From assembly GCA_001825395.1 (NCBI GenBank), contig MHWN01000011.1, positions 1 through 33,945 on the forward strand: 33,945 nucleotides of DNA, given 5' to 3'. The stretch comes from Candidatus Zambryskibacteria bacterium RIFCSPLOWO2_02_FULL_39_26. GTDB taxonomy: Bacteria > Patescibacteriota > Minisyncoccia > Phycocordibacterales > DATDWN01. Made by a program: the position numbers and the translations under genes. The notes under the pieces were generated by a model, which was not told the origin of the DNA, did no database searches, and saw only the letters and a list, made by a program, of their open reading frames with translations. This document shows, one piece after another, positions 7,052 to 25,675 of the stretch. Each line of letters begins with the position of its first letter. Within the stretch, counting starts at the first letter, position 1.

Positions 7052-7381
7052 TGGCTCCGGCGGTAGGGATCGAACCTACGACCAATCGCTTACATTGGTT
7101 CCACGATTACGCGTGGCATGGACTATATCATCATCCTTCACAAATGTGAGTTGGATGTGGGGCGCTTCGCGGTCACTTTCATGACAGCTACTCTCGTTCG
7201 AGATAGTCTCTACACCTTCCGAGCATCATTTTTGGTGCTTGGCTTGGCTCGGGATTGCCCATCTTCTAATTTTTTAGGATTAGGGTTTCCCCGAATTCAC
7301 CTCATTTTTCATCCTAAATTACTTTAGGAAGCTGCACGAACTACGGTACAGGCGATTGCTCTACCACTGAGCTACACCGGA
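7052..7381 (-). tRNA. tRNA-Asn(GUU) with encoded CCA, interrupted by a group I intron
   Basis: Exons TCCGGTGTAGCTCAGTGGTAGAGCAATCGCCTGT + TAAGCGATTGGTCGTAGGTTCGATCCCTACCGCCGGAGCCA fold into a 75-nt cloverleaf; anticodon loop CTGTTAA. Confidence 0.93.
7093..7347 (-). other. Group I self-splicing intron (IC3-like) inside tRNA-Asn anticodon
   Basis: Minus strand: P1 CUGU|AC..GUGCAG with U.G at splice site; P4/P5 region UUCGGGGAAACCC; GGGCAAUCCCGAGCCAAGCC; CGGAAGGUGUAGAGACUAU pairing with AUAUAGUCC (P7); terminal G. Confidence 0.92.
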
Positions 7382-7480: not shown

Positions 7481-7894
7481 ATGAATATAAAAACACGGTC
7501 AAAAAATTTTGATATTACGCCAGCCATAGATGATTATATTGTTAAAAAGTTCTCAACTTTAGAAAAATTTATCAGCTACCATGACAACGTTTTATGTGAA
7601 GCGGAAATAGGAAGGACGACCACTCATCACAAATCCGGGGACATTTTCAGAGCAGAAATTAATATAAATATTCCCGGACAAAAGCAGATTTACGCTTTTG
7701 CCGAAGAAGTTGATTTATATACAGCCATAGATATCGTTAGAGATGAGGCGGAACGGCTTATCGTCTCGCAAAAAAATAAATATAAGACCATGTGGAGACG
7801 CGGGGCCACTCAAATAAAAAACTTAATAAAGATGATTGATATCAGAAACACAGACAGTTATAAAAAAATTAGAAATTTTAGAAGAAAAAAATGA
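7481..7894 (+). CDS. raiA: Ribosome hibernation-promoting factor / ribosome-associated inhibitor (RaiA/HPF)
   Basis: 137 aa; MNIKTRSKNFDITPAIDDYIVKKFSTLEKFI...RAEININIPGQKQIYAFAEEVDLYTAIDIVRDEAERLI. Confidence 0.85.
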   Translation: MNIKTRSKNFDITPAIDDYIVKKFSTLEKFISYHDNVLCEAEIGRTTTHHKSGDIFRAEININIPGQKQIYAFAEEVDLYTAIDIVRDEAERLIVSQKNKYKTMWRRGATQIKNLIKMIDIRNTDSYKKIRNFRRKK

Positions 7895-8055
7895 TTCAAA
7901 CAGGATCATTAAAGCAGAAAGCTAAGCCTCGTTTAATCTTTTTTGTTTTCGGCTGTATTGTCATTATCACGGGACTTTTATACATAGACACTAAAAGTCA
8001 AACTGCCGGAAAACAATTTTCATCTCTTATTAAATTTGGCGCGGAGCTTGAATAG
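7891..8055 (+). CDS. Small single-TM protein (54 aa), overlaps raiA stop (ATGA) and fmt 3' end
   Basis: Manual translation MIQTGSLKQKAKPRLIFFVFGCIVIITGLLYIDTKSQTAGKQFSSLIKFGAELE*; not in supplied ORF track. Confidence 0.5.
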   Translation: MIQTGSLKQKAKPRLIFFVFGCIVIITGLLYIDTKSQTAGKQFSSLIKFGAELE

Positions 8056-8917
8056 ATTTCATTCCTTTTAAATAGTCAGCATAATCCATCTCCCTTTTTC
8101 CCTCGGGGATGACCCTGTCCAAAACAAGTTCGTTCTTTTGGATATGGGCCTTTTTCACAATAATTCTTTTTCCATTTTGAAAAAAATATGCGCCGGGCCA
8201 GAGATGAAAGGCCCTTACTCTCATCAGATTTGTTGAGGCCGGGTCTCGCAAATTCAGTTCAGCATCCGCCTTTTTTATTTTTTCAGTAAAGGTAGCCAGA
8301 GAATGGTCTTGTTCCACTTCTTGAACTTTCCCCAAAACCCAGTTGGGAAGCGTTTCGGCAAGAAGAAGGGCTCCTTCCTTGGCCAACATCTTTTCCAAAT
8401 CTTCAGCGTAAGGCACGTTTTCAGTGCTCCACTCAACCACTTTTTTTTGGGAAAGTATTGGCCCGTGGTCAATTTCAGAATCCAGTCTGATAATACTTAC
8501 TCCAGTTTCAGATTCTCTTAGTATAGCGCTTTGAATAGGGGAAGATCCGCGCAGTTTTGGCAAGAGAGATGGATGAATATTTAAAGTTTTGTATTTTGGA
8601 ATACCCAGAACATTGACCGGGATAATTTTTCCGTAAGATGCTACCACAAAAACATCAAAACCATCGGGCAGATATGACCTGATTATTTTTTCAGACTCGT
8701 TTTCTCTCAATGTTTTTAGTTGTACAAAAGGTATATTATTTTTTTCCGCCCAAACCCTCGCTTCCGGCGGAGTCATAACCAGATTCCTGCCTTTCGATTT
8801 ATCTTCTGCCGTAATAATGAGTTTAGGAACAAAACCTCTAGTTTTGAGTTCATCTAAAACTATAATGGAGAATTCTGATGTTCCAAAAAACGCGAATTTT
8901 ATGCTATCTTTTTGCAT
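8030..8917 (-). CDS. fmt: Methionyl-tRNA formyltransferase
   Basis: 295 aa; 'KTLNIHPSLLPKLRGSSPIQSAIL', 'GVSIIRLDSEIDHGPIL'. Confidence 0.92.
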   Translation of the reverse strand: MQKDSIKFAFFGTSEFSIIVLDELKTRGFVPKLIITAEDKSKGRNLVMTPPEARVWAEKNNIPFVQLKTLRENESEKIIRSYLPDGFDVFVVASYGKIIPVNVLGIPKYKTLNIHPSLLPKLRGSSPIQSAILRESETGVSIIRLDSEIDHGPILSQKKVVEWSTENVPYAEDLEKMLAKEGALLLAETLPNWVLGKVQEVEQDHSLATFTEKIKKADAELNLRDPASTNLMRVRAFHLWPGAYFFQNGKRIIVKKAHIQKNELVLDRVIPEGKREMDYADYLKGMKSIQAPRQI

Positions 8918-24781: not shown

Positions 24782-25675
24782 ATGACACATATTCCAGTTC
24801 TTTTACATGAAGTTATAGACGGACTAGCCCTTAAACCTGGAGATATTTTCGTTGACGGTACTTTAGGTGGTGGTGGCCACAGTGAGGAAGTTCTCAAAAG
24901 ATTTGGCAACAGAGTCAAAATCATCGGGATTGATTTGGATTCCGATGCCGTGAGAAGGTCCGAAGAAAGACTCGGACAATCTCAAGGGGATATAAAATTT
25001 ATAGAGGGAAGTTTCAGAAATCTCAATGCCATTCTTGATTCTTTAAATATCAAAGGCGTTGACAAAATTCTTCTAGACTTAGGTCTTTCTTCAAATCAAT
25101 TTGAAGAATCTGGTAGAGGATTTTCTTTTCAAAAGAATGAGCCGCTCATCATGTCTTTTAAAAAAGATTTGAAAGAAGCTGATTTAACTGCCAAAGAAAT
25201 TCTAAACACTTGGGACTTAGAAAACATTATCACTATTATTAAAAGTTATGGTGAAGAAAAATTTGCTTGGAAAATAGCCAAGGCCATCGTGGAGAGAAGG
25301 GAAGTTAAGCCGATTGAAACAACATTTGATCTGGTGGAGATTATAAAAAGCGCTACGCCGAAATTCTATCACCATCGAAAGATTCATCCAACCACAAAAA
25401 CTTTTCAAGCTTTAAGAATAACAGTGAACGATGAGATAGAAAGCCTAAAAGAAGGAATAAGGAAGGGTTTTGAAAGATTAAACAATGGAGGCAGACTGGC
25501 AGTCATTTCTTTCCATAGTCTGGAGGATAGGGTAGTCAAGCAATTTTTTAAGGAAAAGGGTACTGAAGGTCAAGCCAAGATATTGACAAAAAGACCAATA
25601 ATACCCAGCGATGAAGAAATCGGACAAAACCCAAGAAGTAGAAGCTCCAAGTTGAGAATAATAGAAAAAACATGA
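24782..25675 (+). CDS. rsmH: 16S rRNA m4C1402 methyltransferase RsmH
   Basis: 'HIPVLLHEVIDGL..GDIFVDGTLGGGGHSEEVL', 'FHSLEDRVVKQFF'. Confidence 0.94.
   Translation: MTHIPVLLHEVIDGLALKPGDIFVDGTLGGGGHSEEVLKRFGNRVKIIGIDLDSDAVRRSEERLGQSQGDIKFIEGSFRNLNAILDSLNIKGVDKILLDLGLSSNQFEESGRGFSFQKNEPLIMSFKKDLKEADLTAKEILNTWDLENIITIIKSYGEEKFAWKIAKAIVERREVKPIETTFDLVEIIKSATPKFYHHRKIHPTTKTFQALRITVNDEIESLKEGIRKGFERLNNGGRLAVISFHSLEDRVVKQFFKEKGTEGQAKILTKRPIIPSDEEIGQNPRSRSSKLRIIEKT

Follow-up and report, generated by a model that had tools for sequence, protein, structure and literature searches.

Group I introns within the anticodon loops of bacterial tRNA genes are a classic finding, with tRNA-Leu, tRNA-Ile, tRNA-Arg and tRNA-fMet as their hosts. 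In subgroup IC3 the 5' strand of helix P7 is followed directly by the 3' strand of P3, and the Anabaena and Azoarcus tRNA introns possess neither P7.1 nor P7.2, two helices which, when located between P7 and P3, are a subgroup IA feature by the usual scheme and are absent from IC3 tRNA introns. The tRNAscan-SE authors mention fMet and Ile2 as group I tRNA hosts (PMC8450103), and tRNA-Asn was not found to be named as such a host in the titles, abstracts and selected passages that made up the surveyed literature. Archaeal group I introns have been reported from rRNA only (PMC6125680), and a 2014 review restricts phage introns to protein genes (PMC3984707). Group I introns have also been described from CPR rRNA genes (Tsurumaki et al. 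2024, PMC11270868) and from the T-psi-C loop of tmRNA (PMC11915505), while a 2025 preprint (bioRxiv 2025.07.03.662931, via PMC12641178) announces in its title that tRNA genes of Patescibacteria contain a novel insertion site for group I introns.

The window analyzed here, i.e., the whole 33,945-nucleotide stretch of contig MHWN01000011.1 from Candidatus Zambryskibacteria bacterium RIFCSPLOWO2_02_FULL_39_26, carries on its minus strand, at 7052-7381, a tRNA-Asn(GUU) gene that is interrupted between U35 and U36 (35|36) by a 255-nt group I intron. This intron resembles the known bacterial tRNA introns in its anticodon-loop location, the U.G pair at its 5' splice site, its omega-G, its short core and the often encountered lack of an ORF, yet it differs from them in its host tRNA-Asn, its 35|36 site and the presence of P7.1 and P7.2. 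With the CPR rRNA introns it shares the kind of genome, and RF00028 matches occur in an rRNA region here too, although those introns sit in rRNA and encode LAGLIDADG enzymes, whereas the ORF associated with the tRNA-Asn family is a small HNH one. Like the tmRNA introns, the tRNA-Asn introns recur in many phyla within a single loop of a tRNA-like gene, but the tmRNA introns occupy another gene and another loop and mostly lack an endonuclease or rarely encode a LAGLIDADG one. The preprint, judged by its title, concerns the same phylum, tRNA genes and a novel site, and that site may be the tRNA-Asn 35|36 position. It is very probable that the sole visible tRNA-Asn(GUU) gene of this genome is split at U35/U36 by a self-splicing group I intron representing the endonuclease-free state of a mobile element.

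Boundaries of the split tRNA-Asn gene

The 5' exon (7348..7381, minus strand; 34 nt, tRNA positions 1-35, ending in CGCCUGU) was delimited by sequence inspection and by ARAGORN with introns allowed, and it does not differ from the 5' half of an intronless gene, L059, found in a genome of the same genus. The 3' exon (7052..7092, minus strand; 41 nt, UAAGCG...GCCA, from U36 to the CCA) is defined by the same evidence together with L059. Between them lies the intron (7093..7347, minus strand), whose last base, 7093, is the omega-G, and whose extent follows from the Rfam model RF00028 and from the empty site in L059. Once joined, the exons amount to a tRNA-Asn of 75 nt whose loop reads CUGUUAA, whose anticodon is GUU and whose CCA is encoded in the gene; the intron-free sequence forms a cloverleaf with that anticodon and is identical to L059. 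The sequence-only reading had joined minus-strand exons into such a 75-nt tRNA across 255 nt, and had placed a terminal G at the end of the intron, and each of its coordinates proved accurate.

The RF00028 match spans the whole model at 68.6 bits (E 6.3e-17; gathering score 50), which is the outcome of the Rfam Intron_gpI covariance-model search that had been proposed as a check. ARAGORN with introns allowed returned tRNA-Asn(gtt) with an intron of 255 nt, and without introns it missed the tRNA-Asn and reported only a tRNA-Glu in the window. The RNA fold energy was 2.6 standard deviations below that of dinucleotide shuffles (z -2.6). A mir-451 match in the window was rejected as a chance hit (22 bits against a gathering score of 66.5).

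Two neighbouring ORFs, which we take from sequence resemblance to be hpf-like (ribosome-hibernation factor; 7481..7894, plus strand) and fmt-like (methionyl-tRNA formyltransferase; 8030..8917, minus strand), show tblastn synteny with L049 and L058, two loci of the same genus, and the position of the hpf-like ORF beside tRNA-Asn is conserved in the genus.

Fold of the intron

The fold was drawn on the window sequence and then counted across an alignment of 33 same-site introns without ORFs; all coordinates below refer to the minus strand. P1 (7332..7351) pairs 7351-7346 (CUGU|AC) with the internal guide sequence at 7337-7332 (GUGCAG) and contains the U.G pair at the 5' splice site; its CUGU/GCAG pairing with the U.G is invariant in 33 of 33 sequences, whereas the next, intron-internal pair covaries (GC/AU/CG/GU/UA). 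The P2 hairpin (7313..7328), with a GUAA loop, is changed on both sides in six of its six pairs. The 5' strand of P3 (UGAGGUG, 7298..7304) pairs with 7164-7158, exhibits compensatory changes in three pairs and has one A.C mismatch in the window copy. The alignment further places P4 (7294-7289 with 7254-7249) and P5 (7286-7283 with 7260-7257) at 7249..7294, and P6 (7248-7246 with 7216-7214) and P6a at 7214..7248; P4 occurs among relatives in two swapped forms, CGGG/CCCG versus GCUG/CAGC. The 5' strand of P7 (GACUAU, 7203..7208) pairs with AUAGUC at 7126-7121 and forms a pseudoknot with P3; 98.5% of its cells are paired and five of its six pairs are invariant across the 33 sequences. P8 (7132..7157; 7157-7153 with 7136-7132) shows compensatory changes in four of five pairs. 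Finally, P9 (7116-7112 with 7105-7101) and P9.0 (7119-7118 with 7095-7094) occupy 7094..7119 in the alignment, and the P9.0 pairs covary (AU to GC, and CG/UA/AU/UG); P9.0 is predicted to set the 3' splice site at G7093.

A complete P3-P8 core with the P3/P7 pseudoknot is thus present, with compensatory changes in P3, P4, P5, P6a and P8, and with P6 and P7 paired and nearly invariant. The U.G pair at the 5' splice site and the omega-G are likewise invariant in the 33 sequences, the omega-G itself having been part of the search pattern by which most of these were retrieved. Overall, 92.7% of the cells are paired in the same-site alignment compared to 74.2% in shuffles, both sides are changed in 40 of 62 pairs, and the covariation score of 0.50, compared to 0.157 in shuffles, was reached by none of 500 shuffles; with slid partners at most 43% of cells paired. 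The P1 (CUGU|AC...GUGCAG) and P7 (GACUAU/AUAGUC) pairings that had been read from the window sequence are therefore confirmed and conserved in relatives, and the assignment of a group I intron to position 35|36 of tRNA-Asn(GUU) has the support of the covariance model, of the compensatory changes seen in the majority of helices and of the empty site.

Other group I introns of the genome and subgroup assignment

A second split tRNA gene of the same genome, a tRNA-fMet(CAU) at C16:3175-3480 (L005 1479-1784), carries a 234-nt group I intron in its anticodon loop. On contig C19 some nine more group I matches (L001, L003, L004, L006-L010) are clustered with 16S and 23S rRNA matches, which suggests that many introns interrupt the rRNA genes.

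The tRNA-Asn intron contains both P7.1 (7202-7200 with 7195-7193) and P7.2 (hairpin 7188-7169), located at 7169..7202 between the 5' strand of P7 and the 3' strand of P3, with compensatory changes in 10 of 10 pairs of the 33-sequence alignment; aligned to the Rfam consensus, this region appears as an insertion of 37 nt. The core strings had been read as closely resembling the IC3 introns of cyanobacterial tRNA-Leu(UAA), a comparison against which the covarying P7.1 and P7.2 speak. Membership of IC3, alongside the tRNA-Leu and Azoarcus tRNA-Ile introns, would affect classification alone and is compatible with the mechanism proposed below; it draws on shared core strings, GGGCAAUCC..GAGCCAAGCC and AGAGACUA..AUAGUCC, and on the anticodon-loop location, but we regard it as unlikely given that P7.1 and P7.2 covary here, while both are missing from the fMet intron of the same genome, which is IC3-like in contrast to the tRNA-Asn intron, and from introns of the Azoarcus and Anabaena types. 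Because P7.1 and P7.2 are present, the tRNA-Asn intron looks IA-like rather than IC3, the helices being the IA arrangement and IA membership not being claimed on that feature alone. Compact introns without P7.1 and P7.2 occur at the same tRNA-Asn site in other genomes, hence IC3-like lineages may use this site too.

A single tRNA-Asn gene and its dependence on splicing

The genome is of the CPR/Patescibacteria type, comprising 611 kb in an assembly that is 92.6% complete. No second tRNA-Asn was found in it: a search with the spliced sequence matched the two exons alone, the intact anticodon/T-arm pattern gave no match, and a tRNA family search returned no other tRNA-Asn. Contig C7 ends in a partial tRNA, which was considered as a second copy and rejected, being Ser-like with a GGA anticodon. 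The case that the window gene is the sole tRNA-Asn of the genome is strong, if not final at 92.6% completeness.

Across 380 genomes of the phylum, comparison of two lists showed the intron-junction pattern in 60, the intact pattern in 225 and both in three, against approximately 35 expected for co-occurrence (Fisher p ~4e-22, in a test that counts genomes as independent although related genomes are not); the reversed-pattern control gave 0 matches. In three near-complete relatives (G012, G060 and G094; 99-100%) a similarity search likewise revealed the split gene alone. The near-exclusion of the intron-bearing and intact forms, combined with the single copy, suggests that splicing is probably essential, in agreement with the earlier proposition that it would be so if this were the only tRNA-Asn. 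Moreover, since the anticodon is split, the precursor would be neither charged normally nor able to decode, so that splicing should be essential.

Intron states within the genus

Three states of the insertion site coexist in one genus, i.e., empty, ORF-less and HNH-bearing. The intronless tRNA-Asn of G001 (L059) matches the predicted spliced product exactly, and that of G005 (L058) is 99% identical to it and has the window's hpf-like and fmt-like ORFs as its neighbours, which identifies it as the orthologous locus, empty of the intron. G007 possesses a tRNA-Asn intron without an ORF, like that of the window. In G010 (L049), with the same synteny, the tRNA-Asn intron is 568 nt long and an HNH-type ORF lies in its P1 loop. 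The tRNA-Asn body of L049 (1133-1774) is clearly different from that of other members of the genus, so exon homology within the genus is not simple; possible causes include the replacement of exons in the course of homing.

The window intron contains no ORF, and this copy therefore encodes no homing endonuclease. The initial statement that no ORF or endonuclease lies inside the intron thus holds for the window copy; its close relatives carry an HNH endonuclease ORF in the P1 loop. Small HNH-type ORFs are present in approximately 32 of the resolved same-site introns, and the ORF of the relatives matches a PHROG HNH family (E 4e-30), the Pfam HNH match being marginal. The HNH-type ORF (in L049, L050 and others) often runs into the internal guide sequence, with its Gln-Leu-Pro codons coinciding with GCAGCTTCC of P1/P2. 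A related HNH protein (H2, H3; 45% identity) is encoded by phage FelixO1 at 25219-25524, where it overlaps a stretch annotated with a phage tRNA-Ile gene, which hints at a wider targeting of tRNA genes by this HNH family.

Distribution of the 35|36 site

Insertion between U35 and U36 had been suggested as a possible new site, a view that needs correction: the site is widely used, and the 2025 preprint on a Patescibacteria tRNA site exists. The survey of related genomes for the same insertion site and guide sequence, also suggested at that stage, is represented by the 60 of 380 genomes and the 33 invariant CUGU/GCAG pairings reported above. When 84,980 named species genomes were scanned with the junction pattern, at least 116 loci matched, mostly from the CPR, the pattern having been designed for this junction, so that the counts convey how common the site is and do not compare it with other sites. 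Among the matches listed are Nitrospira, Omnitrophota, Elusimicrobia, cyanobacteria, Ignavibacteria, Rokubacteria and others, as well as two Pacearchaeota contigs. When exons were paired by script, 143 of 145 distinct resolved loci proved to be CTGT|TAA, i.e., tRNA-Asn at 35|36, and one was a tRNA-Lys(CUU). ARAGORN labels of tRNA-Thr for some relatives were dismissed as wrong junction choices, the paired exons giving CTGT|TAA and tRNA-Asn. One locus (L054, labelled His), in which the 3' end of the intron contains Ns, was left out of the resolved set, and the exon parser produced no convincing tRNA for L101.

Intron lengths are bimodal, falling mostly at 180-350 and 500-650 nt. Extended and compact introns were set apart by structure alone, and the differing core types, some of them without P7.1 and P7.2, suggest that the tRNA-Asn site serves more than a single intron lineage. 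In G043 (L064) a tRNA-Asp(GUC) gene is split at the same 35|36 position, from which it appears that the intron, through its guide sequence for CUGU, can also enter tRNAs whose loops are similar; a tRNA-Asp(GUC) gene of G010 (L300) is also split by an intron. In the two Pacearchaeota contigs (L075 and L079) the tRNA-Asn gene, split by a group I intron at 35|36, adjoins an archaeal-type FtsZ gene, and L079 has an HNH-type ORF.

The junction pattern also matched 43 viral-collection contigs (IMG/VR, L219-L261), most of which, upon exon pairing, gave tRNA-Asn(GUU) or tRNA-Lys(UUU/CUU), with some 40 carrying introns at 35|36. One of them, L235, has cellular-looking genes and other such contigs may be cellular, and the viral status of these contigs consequently needs care.

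Taken broadly, the 35|36 bond of tRNA-Asn could be a general, recurrent homing site for several structurally distinct group I lineages that share the CUGU guide pairing and often carry a small P1-loop HNH, entered in the CPR, many bacterial phyla, Pacearchaeota and viral contigs, with spill-over to tRNA-Asp(GUC) and tRNA-Lys(UUU and CUU); we hold the chances of this generalization to be evenly balanced.

Proposed mechanism and alternatives

The exon boundaries, the CUGU guide pairing, the full P3-P9 core with P7.1/P7.2 and P9.0, the omega-G and the empty site are read from sequence, and from these we infer the splicing of the tRNA-Asn precursor. The transcript would fold and exogenous guanosine would dock at P7; P1 would present U35 through the U.G pair, and cleavage after U35 would leave U35-OH; P9.0 and the omega-G would then position the 3' site for the joining of U35 to U36, resulting in a normal tRNA-Asn. 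As the anticodon is read by both asparaginyl-tRNA synthetase and the ribosome, its splitting would render the precursor inert until spliced. The window intron would be a mobile element in its endonuclease-free state, and its HNH-bearing relatives presumably home into the conserved tRNA-Asn anticodon arm, their putative target; its likely history is that an HNH-bearing relative homed in and the ORF was then lost.

The locus might instead be a decayed intron in a tRNA pseudogene that no longer splices, another tRNA-Asn doing the work, and the A.C mismatch in P3, the lack of an endonuclease and the incomplete assembly (92.6%) would fit such decay. The core helices and both tRNA halves are all intact, however, the exons are identical to the intronless gene of a sister genome, the assembly yielded no further tRNA-Asn, and the near-complete G012, G060 and G094 likewise have the split gene alone by similarity search, which together make decay very improbable. 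No bulge-helix-bulge tRNA endonuclease is known from bacteria, and removal of the intron by protein machinery of that type, as in archaea, is less probable still: archaeal and eukaryotic tRNA introns are indeed taken out by proteins (PMC4090602), but in the present intron the group I core is conserved and covarying, and comprises P7, the guide sequence, the U.G pair, P9.0 and the omega-G.

Implications

Under the preferred reading of a self-splicing intron, the aspects that stand out are the wide spread of the site, the HNH link and the near-exclusive distribution of intron-bearing and intact genes. Standard tRNA annotation misses such split genes, as ARAGORN without introns does here, a limit also stated by the tRNAscan-SE authors (PMC8450103), and some apparent losses of tRNA-Asn in CPR genomes are for this reason probably artefacts. 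With all three states of the site present in one genus, the homing cycle can be tested directly for a tRNA intron, and an essential tRNA that is cut inside its anticodon can, it would appear, depend entirely on a ribozyme in minimal bacteria.
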